A stretch of 64,000 nucleotides of DNA from Curvibacter delicatus NBRC 14919 (lineage in GTDB: Bacteria; Pseudomonadota; Gammaproteobacteria; Burkholderiales; Burkholderiaceae_C): contig NZ_BCWP01000021.1 of NCBI RefSeq assembly GCF_001592265.1, positions 1 through 64,000 on the forward strand, given 5' to 3'. Made by a program: the position numbers and the translations under genes. A model generated the notes under the pieces. That model ran no database searches. It was not told where the DNA came from and was given only the letters and a program-made list of their open reading frames with translations. This document shows positions 6,548 through 12,374 of this stretch, piece by piece. How positions within the stretch are numbered: position 1 is the first letter of the stretch; the number at the start of each line of letters is the position of its first letter.

Positions 6548-7393
6548 TTACTTGGGGGCGGCGAGGAAGGTCGCAGCCGACAACCTACACGTGTGGCCGA
6601 TAGCGCCGGGCAAGGTGTAAAGCCTTGGCGCTTGCCGGAATGCGAACAAGCGGTAGAGCTGGTACTGCGAGGCGTGGCGCTCCGAGGTAGCAACTTCATT
6701 GCGCGTTACGAAGAAAGGTGTGTCCACGCCGTACTTCGTCGTCTTCACCTCGATCAGGCGCTCGACACCCGAATCTTCGAACGAAAGAATGTCGTAGCCG
6801 GCGTGGTCGCCGTGCACCTTGGCCGTGTGTTCGATCTTCGCGGCCAGGTTTTCTTTGCCTGCGTGGATCAGGCGGGCGCGCTCGAAGTTCAGCACAAACA
6901 ACTCGCCAGCATTGCCCAAGGAGCGGTTCCGTGCTTCGCGCTCAATGTAATTGGTGGGCAATCGAATGATGGGAACAGAGGGCTCGGAGATTTTGTGTGG
7001 CGCTGGGCGAGGTTGGGGCCGCTCGGTCAGGGCTGCGAGGATATCCTCGACTTCCGGCACAACGATGGGACGGTCGACGTCGGTGGCAGCCAGCGTGAGC
7101 AAGTCAGGCGTTTTATCGAGCCGTTCAGCCAAGACCTCGGCCAGGAGTGACTGATAGTTGGGAAGAGGTTTGTAGCCATTGATATAGGGAAAGCCGGCAT
7201 CCAGCAGTGCAGCGCTGATGTTTGCGTGCTTGAACTCGATGGAAGAGTCCGAGCGACCTTGCAACAAAGGCTTGAGCGCCCGTCGATGTGCCGTCTTGTT
7301 GTACGGCGTGCCGGCAAGCTCTGAGGCCAACATCGACAGGTAGTCAGCGACGATGACCTCGACCTCGACCCGGCTCCAGTCAGTGCTGCTCAT
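6548..7393 (-). CDS. DUF3883 (NO VEIN-like) domain protein, nuclease-fold
   Basis: 281 residues from ATG at 7393. The C-terminal third carries the DUF3883 pattern: GNAGELFVLNFERARL near residue 160, HGDHAGYDILSFE near 190, and RLIEVKTTKYG near 212 followed by FFVTRNEVATSERH and YQLYRLFAFR. The E...D...ExK arrangement is that of PD-(D/E)XK nuclease-like folds, and such domains occur in restriction and defence proteins. The N-terminal ~120 residues are not recognised; the phrase KPLLQGRSDSSIEFKHANIS suggests a small helical domain seen in related proteins. It stands alone, convergent to gapA, with slyD upstream and 17 bp away. No methylase or helicase partner is in the window, so a role in defence or nucleic-acid metabolism is inference only. 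Confidence 0.75.
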   Translation of the reverse strand: MSSTDWSRVEVEVIVADYLSMLASELAGTPYNKTAHRRALKPLLQGRSDSSIEFKHANISAALLDAGFPYINGYKPLPNYQSLLAEVLAERLDKTPDLLTLAATDVDRPIVVPEVEDILAALTERPQPRPAPHKISEPSVPIIRLPTNYIEREARNRSLGNAGELFVLNFERARLIHAGKENLAAKIEHTAKVHGDHAGYDILSFEDSGVERLIEVKTTKYGVDTPFFVTRNEVATSERHASQYQLYRLFAFRQAPRLYTLPGAIGHTCRLSAATFLAAPK

Positions 7394-7904: not shown

Positions 7905-7955
7905 GTAGCCCTCGTTAAAAAAGCGCCTGTAGCTATGATTTTGATAGCTATCCAA
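7905..7955 (-). repeat. Dispersed short repeat, copy 2 (slyD/topB gap, supplies topB stop)
   Basis: Read on the minus strand: AATCATAGCTACAGGCGC, then AACGAGGGCTACACCCC. It carries the same block order as the other copies. The upstream half contains an extra GATAGCTATC palindrome. The TAG stop of topB (7948-7950) falls inside the repeat. Confidence 0.7.
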
Positions 7956-10866
7956 GATGCTTGCCGACGATGCCGGCCAGCTCGAACATGGTGACCTGCG
8001 GTTTGCCGAACACCGGCAACAGCTTGGCGTCGGCATTGATGGCGCGCTTGTTGGTCGCGTCCTGCAGGCCATTGGCCTTGATGTAGTCCCACAGCTTCTT
8101 GACCACCTCGGTGCGCGCCACTGGCTCGTTGCCGATGACGGCGGCCAGTGCGGCGCTCGGGGCCTTGCCGGCGGCCGGTTTGCGTGGTGCCTTTGGGGCC
8201 GCGCTCTTGGCCGGTGCTTTCTTCGCAGCCGCTTTTTTCGCCGGCGCCTTTTTGGCGGCCGGGGCGGCTTTGGCGCTGGTCTTGGCCGAGGGCTTGCGCG
8301 GCGGGAATTTGCTGGGTGCGAACTCGAAGTTCACCTTGCCGGCCTCGGCGTCCCAGGCCAGCATGGCCTTGAAGGGGCGGCGTGTGCGCATGGAGACGAA
8401 CTTGTCGAGCAGGTCGGTCTTGCCGGTGGCCAGCAGCTTGGTCATCTGCTCGCGCTCGATGGGTTGCTGCAGGATGATCTGGCCGCTCTTGAAGTCGCAG
8501 CTGGGCGTGGCCTGCGCCAGGGTCGGCACCGATTTTTCACAGACGTAGTTCTTGCCGTGCTCGTACACCGCGCCGCCGCACTTGGGGCAGGTGCCGAGCG
8601 ATTCCTTGGCCGAGAAATCCACCAGTTCGCCGGTTTCGGACTCGTCTTCGTTGCCGAAGTCGAACTCCAGCTTCCAGTTCTTCTCGTCCTCGTTGTACTT
8701 GAGCGCGATCTCGGCCGTGAAGGGCCAGCCGGCCTTGGAGCGGAAGCCGTCCAGCGGGCCGATGCGCTTGTCGCGCAGGAACTGCTCCACCTCCGCCACC
8801 TCGAAGGTGCGGCCGGCGGGTGTCTTGCCGAAGGAGAAGCCGCAGCCTTCGCTGTTGCCGTCCTGTCCGGTGCAGGCGTAACGGCGGTAGTTTTCCTTCA
8901 CCACGCCGCCGCAGTTCGGGCACGGTGTCGTGAGCGTGGCGTAGTCGCCCGGCACGGTGTCGCGGTCGTATTCCTTGGCCTTCTTGACGATGTGCTCGGT
9001 CATCTCGGCGATCTCGCGCATGAATTCGTCGCGCGAGAGGCGGCCATGCTCCATCTCGGCCAGTTTGTACTCCCACTCGCCGGTCAGCTCGGGCTTGGAG
9101 AGTTCTTCCACACCCAAGCCGCGCAGCAGCGTCATGAGCTGGAAGGCCTTGGCGGTGGGAATCAGTTCGCGCCCTTCGCGCAGCATGTATTTCTCGGCGA
9201 TCAGCCCTTCGATGATGCTGGAGCGGGTGGCTGGCGTGCCCAGGCCTTTTTCCTGCATGGCTTCGCGCAGCTCGTCGTCTTCCACCAGCTTGCCGGCGCC
9301 TTCCATGGCACCCAGCAGCGTGGCTTCGGAGTAGCGTGCCGGCGGTCGCGTCTTCAGGCCCTTCGGCTCGACCTGTTCGGTCTGCACGCGCTCGCCCGGC
9401 TGCACGGCCACCAGGGTCTTGCCGCTGTCTTCGCCCTCTTTCGTTTCGTCCTGGGCTTCCTTGCCGTAGATGGCCAGCCAGCCCGGCTTGACCAGCACCT
9501 TGCCCTCGCTCTTAAAGGCGTGGTTGGCGGCCGTGGTGATGCGGGTGGTCACCTGGTACTCGGCGCTGGGGAAGAACACCGCCATGAAACGGCGCACCAC
9601 CAGGTCGTACAGCTTCTGCTCGGCATCACTCAGGCCGCTGGGCGCCTGCAGCGTCGGGATGATGGCAAAGTGGTCGCTGACCTTGGCGTTGTCAAAGATG
9701 CGCTTGCTGGGCTTGATGTAGTTGTTGTTCAGCGCCGTGAGCGCGTGCGGTGCCAGGTGTTTCATGCCGGAGTCGGCCAGCATGCCGAAAGTGTCCTTCA
9801 CCACGGGCAGGTAGTCCTCGGGCAGGTGGCGCGAATCGGTACGCGGGTAGGTGAGTGCCTTGTGGCGCTCGTACAGGCTTTGTGCCAGCGACAGCGTGGT
9901 CTTGGCGGAAAAGCCGAACTTGCCGTTGGCCTCGCGCTGCAGGCTGGTCAGGTCAAACAGCGCCGGCGAGGCCTGGGTGGTGGGTTTGCTTTCCTCGCTG
10001 ACGGTGGCGCTTTGGCCACGTACGGCATCGGCAATGGCCTGCGCCTCCCGGGCAGACCAGACGCGGTCGGCCTTCTGTTCGGCGTCGGGCTCTGTGCCTT
10101 CCACGGCGGCCGGTTTTTTCCATTTCGGGTCGAACCACTTGCCGGCGTATTCGCCCGCCTGTGCGCCGAAGGTGGCGTGCACTTCCCAGTAGTCGCGGCT
10201 GACGAACTTGCGGATTTTTTCTTCGCGTTCCACCACCACGGCCAGCGTGGGCGTCTGCACCCGGCCGACGGTGGTGAGGAAAAAGCCGCCGTCGCGCGAG
10301 TTGAAGGCGGTCATGGCGCGCGTGCCGTTGATGCCGACCAGCCAGTCGGCCTCGGAGCGGCTGCGCGCGGCGTCGGCCAGCGGCTGCATCTGCTTGTCTG
10401 TGCGCAGGGCATTGAAGCCGTCGCGGATGGCCTGCGGCGTCATGCTCTGCAGCCACAGGCGGCTGACCGGCTTGCCCAGCGGTTTGCTGCCGCCGGCGTA
10501 CTGCTCGATCAGGCGGAAGATCAGCTCCCCCTCGCGGCCCGCGTCGCAGGCATTCACGATCTTGTCGACGTCTTTGCGCTTGGCCAGTTTCACCACGGCG
10601 TTCAGGCGCGTCTTGGTCTTGTCCACCGGCTTGAGGTCGAAGTGCGGCGGAATCACCGGCAGGTGGGCAAAGCTCCACTTGCCACGCTTGACGTCGTACT
10701 GCTCTGGCGCCTGGATCTCCACCAGGTGGCCCACGGCGCTGGAGACGACGTAGCTGTCGCTCTCGAAATACTCGTCGTGCTTCTCGAACTTGCCTGCCAC
10801 CGGCGTGAGGGCACGCACGATGTCTTGGGCGACGGAAGGTTTCTCGGCAATGACCAGTGTTTTCAT
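7948..10866 (-). CDS. topB: DNA topoisomerase III with C-terminal SWIB domain
   Basis: Type IA topoisomerase that passes single strands and decatenates DNA. From ATG at 10866 the protein is 972 residues, far longer than E. coli TopB (653). The Toprim domain is at the N-terminus (MKTLVIAEKPSVAQDI, then NACDAGREGELI). The catalytic Tyr is Tyr340 in TYPRTDSRHLP. After the core come two zinc-ribbon segments (CPNCGG...CTGQDGNSEGCGF and CPKCGG...CEKS...CDF). Next is a histone-H1-like Lys/Ala/Pro linker of about 60 residues (AAPAAKKAPAKKAAAKKAP). Last comes a SWIB/MDM2-type domain of about 80 residues (VVKKLWDYIKANGLQD, INADAKLLPVFGK, MFELAGIVGKHL). A long frame opening upstream to 11001 would give a non-homologous N-terminus and is rejected. 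It is divergent from the SET gene. Confidence 0.95.
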   Translation of the reverse strand: MKTLVIAEKPSVAQDIVRALTPVAGKFEKHDEYFESDSYVVSSAVGHLVEIQAPEQYDVKRGKWSFAHLPVIPPHFDLKPVDKTKTRLNAVVKLAKRKDVDKIVNACDAGREGELIFRLIEQYAGGSKPLGKPVSRLWLQSMTPQAIRDGFNALRTDKQMQPLADAARSRSEADWLVGINGTRAMTAFNSRDGGFFLTTVGRVQTPTLAVVVEREEKIRKFVSRDYWEVHATFGAQAGEYAGKWFDPKWKKPAAVEGTEPDAEQKADRVWSAREAQAIADAVRGQSATVSEESKPTTQASPALFDLTSLQREANGKFGFSAKTTLSLAQSLYERHKALTYPRTDSRHLPEDYLPVVKDTFGMLADSGMKHLAPHALTALNNNYIKPSKRIFDNAKVSDHFAIIPTLQAPSGLSDAEQKLYDLVVRRFMAVFFPSAEYQVTTRITTAANHAFKSEGKVLVKPGWLAIYGKEAQDETKEGEDSGKTLVAVQPGERVQTEQVEPKGLKTRPPARYSEATLLGAMEGAGKLVEDDELREAMQEKGLGTPATRSSIIEGLIAEKYMLREGRELIPTAKAFQLMTLLRGLGVEELSKPELTGEWEYKLAEMEHGRLSRDEFMREIAEMTEHIVKKAKEYDRDTVPGDYATLTTPCPNCGGVVKENYRRYACTGQDGNSEGCGFSFGKTPAGRTFEVAEVEQFLRDKRIGPLDGFRSKAGWPFTAEIALKYNEDEKNWKLEFDFGNEDESETGELVDFSAKESLGTCPKCGGAVYEHGKNYVCEKSVPTLAQATPSCDFKSGQIILQQPIEREQMTKLLATGKTDLLDKFVSMRTRRPFKAMLAWDAEAGKVNFEFAPSKFPPRKPSAKTSAKAAPAAKKAPAKKAAAKKAPAKSAAPKAPRKPAAGKAPSAALAAVIGNEPVARTEVVKKLWDYIKANGLQDATNKRAINADAKLLPVFGKPQVTMFELAGIVGKHLG

Positions 10867-10885
10867 CTGACTACAATCCAGTTCT

Positions 10886-10930
10886 CGCGTGCGCGTACGC
10901 GCATGCACGTGAGCGCGCACACGCGCGCGC
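10886..10930. other. Alternating purine-pyrimidine tract (Z-DNA-prone) between topB and the SET gene
   Basis: Bases 10886-10911 alternate pyrimidine-purine without a break (mostly CG, with TG, TA and CA steps). After one out-of-phase base at 10912 the pattern resumes at 10913 and runs to 10930. This is about 45 bp of almost perfect alternation, lying entirely in the divergent intergenic gap (10867-10963). Confidence 0.75.
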
Positions 10931-10963
10931 CCATACGGATTCACCTTACCAAATTTTTCAGCC

Positions 10964-11560
10964 GTGTCCAAACAAGCCCCCGCAAATCCCAGCCGCCGCA
11001 TTCAGACCCGCCGTTCCGGCGTCCATGGCAAGGGAGTGTTTGCCGTGCAGGACCTCGCCGAAGGCGAGACCATCATCGAGTACGTGGGCGAGGTGATTTC
11101 CTGGGACGAGGCACAGCGCCGCCATCCGCACGACCCGAAGGACCCGAACCACACCTTCTACTTCCATGTGGACGAAGACCATGTGATCGATGCCAAGCAT
11201 GGCGGCAACTCCTCGCGCTGGATCAACCACTCCTGCGATCCGAACTGCGAGGCCGACGAAGTGGAGGGGCGCGTCTTCATCAAGGCACTGCGCAACATCA
11301 AGGCTGGCGAGGAACTGAACTACGACTACGGCCTGATCATTGACGAGCCCTACACCAAGAAGCTCAAGGCCGAATACCCCTGCTGGTGCGGCAGCAAGAA
11401 CTGCCGCGGCACCCTGCTGGCGCCGAAGGACGACGAGGTGAAGAAGTCCAAGAAGAAAGACAAGAAAAAGAAGGACAAGGCGAAAAAAGACAAAGTGGGC
11501 AAGGTCAAGGCCGAAAAGGGCCAGGCCAAGAAATCCAAAGCCAAGGGCGACAAGCGCTGA
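10964..11560 (+). CDS. SET-domain protein-lysine methyltransferase with Lys-rich tail
   Basis: 198 residues from GTG at 10964; no good ribosome binding site is visible. The SET domain fills residues ~10-125: VHGKGVFAVQDLAEGETIIEYVGEVI, quoted here as GKGVFAV and EYVGEVI, then the SAM-binding and pseudoknot motif RWINHSCDPNCE (85-96) and GEELNYDYG (115-123). A post-SET Cys cluster CWCGSKNCRG sits at 140-149. The last ~45 residues are almost all Lys, Asp, Ala and Gly (KKSKKKDKKKKDKAKKDK), like a histone tail or DNA-binding tail. Bacterial SET proteins methylate lysines on histone-like or ribosomal proteins; the substrate here is unknown. Divergent from topB and followed by birA after 31 bp. Confidence 0.9.
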   Translation: MSKQAPANPSRRIQTRRSGVHGKGVFAVQDLAEGETIIEYVGEVISWDEAQRRHPHDPKDPNHTFYFHVDEDHVIDAKHGGNSSRWINHSCDPNCEADEVEGRVFIKALRNIKAGEELNYDYGLIIDEPYTKKLKAEYPCWCGSKNCRGTLLAPKDDEVKKSKKKDKKKKDKAKKDKVGKVKAEKGQAKKSKAKGDKR

Positions 11561-11591: not shown

Positions 11592-12374
11592 ATGAAATCC
11601 AGCGGACGTGTCTTGCAGTGGCCGGCCGAGGCGATCTGGGAAGCCGTGGCGCCCACCCTGCCCGGCTTCACGGTCGAGGTGCTGCCGAGCATCGATTCCA
11701 CCAACACCGAGCTGATGCGCCGTGCCCGTGCCGGACAGACCGAGCCGGTGCTGCTGGTGGCCGAGACCCAGAGCGCCGGTCGCGGTCGTCTGGGGCGAGC
11801 CTGGCAGGGCGCCACGCCCGCCGATGTCGGCGCTACCCTGACCTTTTCCCTGGGCCTGCCGCTGCAGATGGCGGACTGGTCCGGCTTGTCGCTGGCCGTG
11901 GGCGTGAGCGTGGCCCAGAGCCTGCACCCTGGTCTGCAGCTCAAATGGCCCAACGACGTCTGGCTGCACGACCGTAAGCTGGCCGGCATCCTGATCGAGA
12001 CCGCGAACAATGCCGCCACGCGCTACGCCGTGATTGGCATCGGCATCAACGTGGCGCCGCGCGCGGCCACGGGTCTGGCTACGCCGCCGGCCTGGCTGCA
12101 GGAACTGGAGCCCGGCATTGATGCCCCAGCCGCACTGCTGCGGGTGGCGGCCCCGCTGGTGCAGGCGGTCCGGCGTTTTGAGGTACAGGGTTTTGCGCCG
12201 TTCCGGGAGGCCTTTCTGCGGCGCGATGCGCTGGCCAATCGCACCGTGAGCCTGAGTGACGGCACCCAAGGGGTGGCGCAAGGGGTGGACGGCACGGGCG
12301 CCTTGCTGGTGCATACTTCGGCGGGACTGGTCCGGGTCAACAGCTCCGAGGTCAGCGTCCGTCCTGCCACCTGA
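11592..12374 (+). CDS. birA: Biotin-[acetyl-CoA-carboxylase] ligase, catalytic type without HTH
   Basis: Attaches biotin to the acceptor lysine of biotin carboxyl carrier protein through biotinyl-AMP. Shows STNTELMRRAR, the biotin-AMP loop ETQSAGRGRLGRAW near residue 60, LKWPNDVWLHDRKLAGILIE near 117 and VIGIGINVA near 145. The C-terminal SH3-like domain includes GVDGTGALLVHT. The protein begins almost directly with the catalytic domain, so it lacks the winged-helix repressor domain of E. coli BirA and should not repress biotin genes. It is 15 bp upstream of the SPOR gene and probably cotranscribed with it. Confidence 0.93.
   Translation: MKSSGRVLQWPAEAIWEAVAPTLPGFTVEVLPSIDSTNTELMRRARAGQTEPVLLVAETQSAGRGRLGRAWQGATPADVGATLTFSLGLPLQMADWSGLSLAVGVSVAQSLHPGLQLKWPNDVWLHDRKLAGILIETANNAATRYAVIGIGINVAPRAATGLATPPAWLQELEPGIDAPAALLRVAAPLVQAVRRFEVQGFAPFREAFLRRDALANRTVSLSDGTQGVAQGVDGTGALLVHTSAGLVRVNSSEVSVRPAT

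Follow-up and report, generated by a model that had tools for sequence, protein, structure and literature searches.

Our analysis revealed a long alternating purine-pyrimidine tract in the intergenic region shared by topB, which encodes a DNA topoisomerase III, and a divergent gene for a SET-domain protein (hereafter SET) in Curvibacter delicatus. Both proteins resemble components of eukaryotic chromatin. The whole stretch of DNA analysed, 64 kilobases (kb) long, is referred to as the window. The gene order is conserved in the family of this bacterium, and the tract is constrained and is rare in the sequences searched. The best reading of these observations, to which we give an even chance, is a switch that senses supercoiling and links the topoisomerase with a protein methyltransferase. 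The features of the intergenic region and its borders, in window coordinates, are as follows.

10867..10963, no strand: intergenic region shared by topB and SET, 97 base pairs (bp), from the window sequence
10886..10911, no strand: alternating purine-pyrimidine run of 26 nucleotides (nt), the longest in the 64-kb window, from a run scan
10913..10930, no strand: second alternating run of 18 nt, the sole other run of at least 17 nt in the window, from the same scan
10872..10877, forward strand: predicted -10 element of SET, TACAAT, with a weak -35 element, ATGACC, at 10850-10855, from a promoter scan and conservation
10943..10951, reverse strand: predicted extended -10 element of topB, TGGTAAGGT, from the pattern TGnTAnnnT and a motif search

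The long purine-pyrimidine alternation of the tract exceeds chance. The 136 divergent topB/SET pairs compared, the window's locus included, gave 129 distinct intergenic regions, 127 of them 30-800 bp in length; seven loci were left out, four with an unaligned TopB start and three in which the genes are not divergent. The longest alternating run per region had a median of 23 nt and reached at least 18 nt in 96/127, compared with 0.9% of the dinucleotide shuffles of these regions. Runs of at least 18 nt numbered 119 in 35,014 bp of topB-SET intergenic sequence versus 7 in 1,571,034 bp elsewhere in the same loci, and none was found in the 312 other non-coding gaps of 60-400 nt in these loci, where the longest run was 15 nt. 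The initial annotation had named a single promoter region between topB and SET; the alternating tract that this region holds went unmentioned.

The tract has diverged in a way that spares its alternation. In 48 disjoint pairs of intergenic regions, transitions accounted for 119 of the 146 substitutions in the tract (82%) versus 261/682 in the flanks (38%), and the shares were 0.75 and 0.39, respectively, across 1663 overlapping ordered pairs. Since transitions preserve alternation, the shape of the tract is kept and its letters are not. We propose that this is because the tract acts as a superhelicity-dependent DNA element. Its propensity to form Z-DNA was computed with a two-state energy model that assumes a 5-kb domain and takes the B-Z energies from Table 1 of PMC3024258 (this and the other papers given by PMC number are cited from excerpts). 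For intergenic regions longer than 250 nt, the last 250 nt were used. The predicted superhelical density of the flip, |sigma|, had a median of 0.045 (0.042-0.049, 5th to 95th percentile) and was at most 0.05 in 122/127 regions (96%), a level at which none of 1016 control windows or 312 gaps flipped (lowest gap, 0.051). The window's own intergenic tile ranked first of 659 tiles by predicted flip threshold. With the generally accepted range of supercoiling in living cells, the tract is thus predicted to flip at physiological supercoiling.

Predicted promoters flank the tract. TACAAT precedes it on the SET strand in 121/127 intergenic regions, with a median gap of 9 nt, and occurs on the opposite strand in 0/127. 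For the topB strand, unsupervised motif discovery in 94 diverse sequences gave a block resembling TTTGgTAnnnTGAA on the right-hand side of the tract, and TGnTAnnnT, the pattern of an extended -10 element, was present in 99/127 regions versus a fraction of 0.058 of mononucleotide shuffles. Both predicted -10 sites were found in 96/127 regions at a median inner distance of 62 bp, and the tract lay between them in 96/96, which is partly by construction, as the right-hand site was sought beyond the tract. A simple promoter scan of the window gave the SET site a score of 9/12, with 0.1 expected, and found no site on the topB strand, where a -35 element was not evident. The genes are divergent but their predicted promoters face each other, so that both transcripts would begin with the tract.

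The promoters, the formation of Z-DNA in cells, the co-regulation of the two genes and the substrate of SET are inferred. In the proposed mechanism, the divergent topB/SET pair would be read from facing promoters whose -10 elements lie about 60 bp apart, with the tract in between. At physiological negative supercoiling the tract would flip from the B- to the Z-form and take up twist beside both -10 elements; according to the twist values of the model, a flip of about 40 bp would absorb several negative turns. Plasmid work indicated that Z-DNA could hinder RNA polymerase just after the start, and the Z-form tract would similarly obstruct early elongation from both promoters. Twist uptake and a hindered polymerase would therefore make a threshold switch by which winding sets topB and SET together. 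Most likely, both genes would be shut off above a winding threshold, although this sign is a guess. More tentatively, and with more doubt than belief, we suggest that the tract is a naturally occurring Z-DNA sensor of supercoiling whose shape, though not its letters, is conserved across many species of the family, and in which one flip co-regulates topB and SET and thereby ties winding to the methylation of nucleoid proteins.

Evolution appears to keep the alternation while the letters drift, and does so at a single place ahead of a topoisomerase gene, which is where one would expect a sensor of supercoiling. To our knowledge, the physiological role of Z-DNA in bacteria is an old open question that has mostly been approached with artificial inserts. 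Alternating DNA near a start, with effects that depend on supercoiling, is familiar from the purine-pyrimidine (RY) box of the Halobacterium bop promoter and from the block of transcription by Z-DNA in Escherichia coli plasmids; these are single loci, whereas the topB/SET tract is common to many species. The supercoiling-sensitive topoisomerase promoters of E. coli and of mycobacterial topoI are similar in that a topoisomerase gene responds to supercoiling, or in the present case is proposed to respond. In contrast, the sensor proposed for mycobacterial topoI is a sub-optimal spacing of the -35 and -10 elements (PMC4770202), and that predicted for topB/SET is a Z-prone tract between facing promoters. 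Neither the pair nor the tract is described in the titles and abstract openings of the matches listed from the open-licence literature, a collection without most subscription papers.

The tract goes with the divergent pair. In other families, the longest alternating run was 11 nt upstream of topB (23 loci, of which 20 were fetched and three belong to family f6) and 13 nt upstream of SET (43 loci, distant SET proteins included). In the one case in which SET has been lost (L217), no tract lies upstream of topB.

Several points weigh against the supercoiling-sensing switch. No run of 14 nt is present in 5/127 intergenic regions and none of 18 nt in 31/127, and related loci are not independent samples. 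In the model, the threshold of the window shifts from 0.053 to 0.037 for domains of 2 to 20 kb. The steps of the tract are strand-biased (CA 414 versus TG 182 on the SET strand), a bias for which Z-DNA alone does not ask. The start sites of topB and SET are predicted, and the -35 elements are weak, with 35/121 matching at least 4 of 6 positions. In well-studied bacteria, relaxation falls mainly to enzymes other than topoisomerase III. Lastly, in the single locus L218, topB retains an interrupted tract that is Z-prone in the model (0.048), and the moved SET has none (0.059). Because topB keeps a version of the tract after SET has moved, the tract is possibly topB's own, and this case leans to topB as its owner.

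The strongest alternative, itself rather unlikely, is that a protein favouring flexible pyrimidine-purine steps, such as gyrase, a topoisomerase or a nucleoid protein, binds or cleaves the tract, with no Z-switch. Alternation without fixed letters also yields many such steps, and the CA/TG strand bias suits a directional protein. Moreover, a mycobacterial topoisomerase promoter is reported to recruit gyrase (PMC4770202). However, the runs reach 52 nt without a fixed motif, which is long for a binding site, and the steps range from CG, the most frequent, to TA, the least frequent, an order favoured by Z-DNA, toward which the flanks lean likewise. A constraint at the level of RNA, in which topB and SET would have overlapping, complementary 5' leaders that fold or control one another, is less probable still. 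The leaders would overlap antisense over the tract if the predicted starts are right, but alternation is unneeded for antisense pairing. Compared with shuffles of two-base units, the tract showed no folding beyond its alternation (mean z -0.09, standard error of the mean 0.09, n 80), and a hairpin in the leader was discarded for lack of a signal in this comparison. No known RNA was found at window positions 10700-11150, where five Rfam matches fell far under their thresholds (best, 17.5 bits versus 85), and no tRNA in the six loci examined. A functionless product of neutral dinucleotide slippage is very unlikely, for although CG and CA steps can expand, the long runs are concentrated in the topB-SET intergenic regions rather than in the roughly 1.57 Mb around them, and the substitutions are biased to transitions.

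The supercoiling-sensing switch would place the SET protein and the topoisomerase under one control. The SET gene and its surroundings comprise the following features.

10964..11560, forward strand: SET-domain protein of 198 amino acids (aa) with a GTG start, from a domain search
11027..11332, forward strand: SET domain, with no variation at the core motif residues among 32 aligned near relatives, from the alignment
11426..11557, forward strand: lysine-rich tail of the SET protein, unconserved among relatives, from tail counts
11592..12374, forward strand: birA-like biotin ligase, the conserved neighbour beyond SET, from a domain search and locus comparison

The SET protein matched PF00856 with 91.8 bits, and its best sequence matches in the PDB were histone lysine methyltransferases of the MLL1/SET1 type (E 2e-26; best 60 of 130 matches). 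The residues of three motifs, which we take to be those named NHxC, GxEL-x-YDY and post-SET CxC-x4-C, were invariant in 32/32 aligned near relatives. The assignment rests on sequence because the structure model was poor, with a mean predicted local distance difference test score (pLDDT) of 44.7. No second SET match was found in the C. delicatus genome at E 0.001. Many genomes of the family have 2-4 SET matches, and among the matches listed the additional ones often score about 66-77 bits and lie elsewhere than the best.

The most likely role of SET is that of an active methyltransferase inside the cell, acting on basic nucleoid proteins. An internal protein methyltransferase is suggested because the core and post-SET residues are invariant and no type III secretin exceeded the cut-off in 106/120 genomes of the family. 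The nearest precedent would be cpnSET, which methylates the chlamydial protein Hc1, although NUE did not (PMC3980110). SWIB proteins rich in alanine, lysine and proline (AKP-rich) and the tails of TopB would be the first substrate candidates. The SET locus is a conserved chromosomal context for a bacterial SET enzyme in many environmental bacteria, which argues that such enzymes can serve the bacterium from within.

The initial annotation had also suggested that the enzyme might methylate its own tail. The last ~45 residues of the window protein are indeed rich in lysine, aspartate and alanine, as it had described, but the tail is unconserved: among 79 named relatives, it holds at least 10 lysines in 35 and at most 4 in 40, and within the genus (n=19, window included) the corresponding numbers are 11 and 8. 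The tail is therefore disfavoured as a substrate.

BtSET and LegAS4 share with this protein a SET domain of the histone methyltransferase type; in contrast to the present case, they are reported effectors. That SET is likewise secreted and acts on host histones is highly improbable. BtSET of B. thailandensis has been described as an effector of the type III route (PMC3980110), and SET gave a weak match to the LegAS4/AnkI model NF043024 (44.4 bits, cut-off 550). However, SET was found in 114/120 family genomes, whereas 14/120 had a type III secretin that passed the cut-off and the other 106 had none; the best secretin match in the C. delicatus genome, 142 bits, is under the cut-off of 238.45. 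The type III route alone was searched. The conserved position of SET beside topB also speaks against an effector. Methylation of a small molecule is equally improbable: BurB, a SET enzyme, produces S-methylmethionine from methionine (PMC12542666), but the best PDB matches of SET are of the histone methyltransferase type (BurB, not directly aligned with SET, was not among the best 60 of 130), and these matches, together with the invariant post-SET cysteines in 32 relatives, speak against such a role.

On the other side of the intergenic region, TopB comprises Toprim, Topoisom_bac, two Toprim_Crpt repeats, a Lys/Ala/Pro linker and SWIB.

7948..10866, reverse strand: topB, DNA topoisomerase III of 972 aa with a C-terminal SWIB domain, from domain searches and NCBIfam PRK14724
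7954..8160, reverse strand: SWIB/MDM2 domain, TopB aa 903-971, from profile, sequence and structure matches
8176..8307, reverse strand: Lys/Ala/Pro-rich H1-like linker, about aa 854-897 of TopB, of low model confidence
8656..8847, reverse strand: Toprim_Crpt, the better of two repeats, TopB aa 674-737, from a domain search

The SWIB-type domain that the initial annotation had placed at the end of TopB is borne out. The domain matched PF02201 with 83.7 bits (cut-off 25); the nearest solved sequence was UAF30 (E 8.8e-12); in a model of the C-terminal third of TopB it had block-mean pLDDT values of 84-93; and a Foldseek search with this model gave SWIB/MDM2 structures as top matches. The structure prediction that had been proposed as a check thus supports the SWIB fold. 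Such a TopB is already known: the curated family NCBIfam NF011313 / PRK14724 covers aa 1-971 with 1975.7 bits (curated cut-off 1088) and is alike from end to end, SWIB tail included, with no difference found; its description is silent on SET and on the promoter. The topoisomerase I/SWI fusion model PRK06319, at 194.6 bits, falls short of its cut-off of 868.

A tree was built, from few columns, of 24 SWIB domains that are fused and 21 that are free. A branch with support of 92/98, present in 94% of bootstrap trees, had all the fused domains on one side. This is in keeping with a single fusion event. The free SWIB protein usually joins an AKP-rich arm, variable in length, to SWIB, which is the layout of the TopB tail. 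An extra end segment lies within or replaces the lysine-rich tail in the TopB of L269, L273 and L283 (f44) and of L326 (f23); it presumably resembles the topoisomerase C-terminal repeat of the GRYGPYV type.

The divergent topB/SET pairing, for which a survey had been suggested, is widespread in the family. In 78/80 named loci, TopB lies upstream of SET on the opposite strand; these loci are the best 80 of 546 matches and are thus biased to near relatives, with Ramlibacter, Polaromonas, Limnohabitans, Variovorax, Curvibacter and Hydrogenophaga among the genera. In the other two (L047 and L086), TopB was not found in the little sequence before SET, which is no more than 220 nt from the contig-side end. 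SWIB was present in 68/68 named loci with a complete TopB C-terminus (45 by pattern, 23 by eye). In an even sample of 120 family genomes, all had a SWIB match. Among the matches listed, 24/26 SWIB matches in frames of at least 974 aa sit 3.1-3.8 kb from SET; in the remaining two, SET is 11 kb away (G279) or absent (G237).

A further 40 stretches of the family were fetched, mostly from genomes with a single SWIB match among the matches listed. A divergent pair in which TopB lacks SWIB, with a birA match beyond SET, was found in 35/40. The others were a divergent pair with SWIB in TopB (L223); a TopB with SWIB whose gene is about 8 kb from SET (L218, from G279); a TopB-SWIB with SET lost (L217, from G237); a SET of 55% identity for which about 5.6 kb around it hold no TopB (L229); and a SWIB frame with no TopB (L235). 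The pairing is therefore independent of the SWIB fusion, and SWIB was rejected as the core of the pair. In 13 loci (L035, L092, L071, L031 and nine others), topB and the tract are separated by a redoxin-like gene with a WxSWC motif on the topB strand, and the tract remains at the divergent border, close to SET.

In 200 genomes of the order, SET was found in 50, SWIB in 73 and a TopB of this type in 98. SWIB was present in 40/50 SET genomes versus 33/150 others (Fisher p 3e-13), and TopB in 35/37 genomes with a close SET orthologue versus 63/163 (p 1e-10); both p-values ignore kinship. No TopB-SWIB fusion was seen in this sample outside the family. In seven genomes of other families (G114, G149, G151, G211, G049, G093 and G076), about 4-17 kb separate SET from topB, and in G168 and G135 the distance is 34 and 88 kb, respectively; in others SET is far from topB or on another contig.

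Methylation of TopB's tail lysines by SET, as initially suggested, is not supported in that form but may still occur. Outside the family, the TopB tail holds a median of 12 lysines with a close SET orthologue versus 7 without (Mann-Whitney p 0.003, n 29 and 57), a count that took in 94/98 TopB genomes, dropped two incomplete tails and left genome size uncontrolled. Permuted within families, the difference had a p of only 0.048 from five informative families. As counter-examples, the f6 TopB beside SET has 1 lysine in its tail, and the six SET-less family genomes examined all retain TopB, five of them, by eye, with a lysine-rich tail. The TopB tail was thus set aside as the substrate in the form first put forward. 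The broader idea of a chromatin-like module keeps the divergent pair and the co-occurrence of SET and SWIB; SWIB as its defining part and a conserved SET tail do not stand.

Chlamydiae likewise combine, within one genome, a SWIB-ended topoisomerase with a SET enzyme and an unfused SWIB protein (PMC6426960), and a chromatin complex was proposed in the same paper, which also puts a bacterial SET-SWIB link in print, citing Aravind 2011. They differ in that topoisomerase I carries SWIB there and topoisomerase III in Curvibacter; the SWIB C-terminus of TopA has been called unique to Chlamydia (PMC12445093).

Outside the family, SET may also adjoin gyrB. In f6, gyrB and topB flank it on either side (G023 and G116; the contig of G073 begins at SET), and in f32 it is beside gyrB in G049, G093, G333 and G388 (3/30 loci of the f32 survey and another fetched set). 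It is directly 3' of gyrB on the same strand in L114, L135, L170 and L186 (f32) and in L111 and L123 (f6), where it is squeezed against a convergent, SWIB-less topB. Most other fetched SET loci had no topB, gyrB/parE or gyrA/parC within about 6 kb; topA was not searched. Because some genomes have topB, SET and gyrB close together and close to the start of the record, the adjacency may reflect a shared position, and it was set aside as a sign of a topoisomerase link. In the window, the gene next but one to topB (6548-7393, reverse strand) encodes a protein with a NO VEIN C-terminal domain (PF13020).

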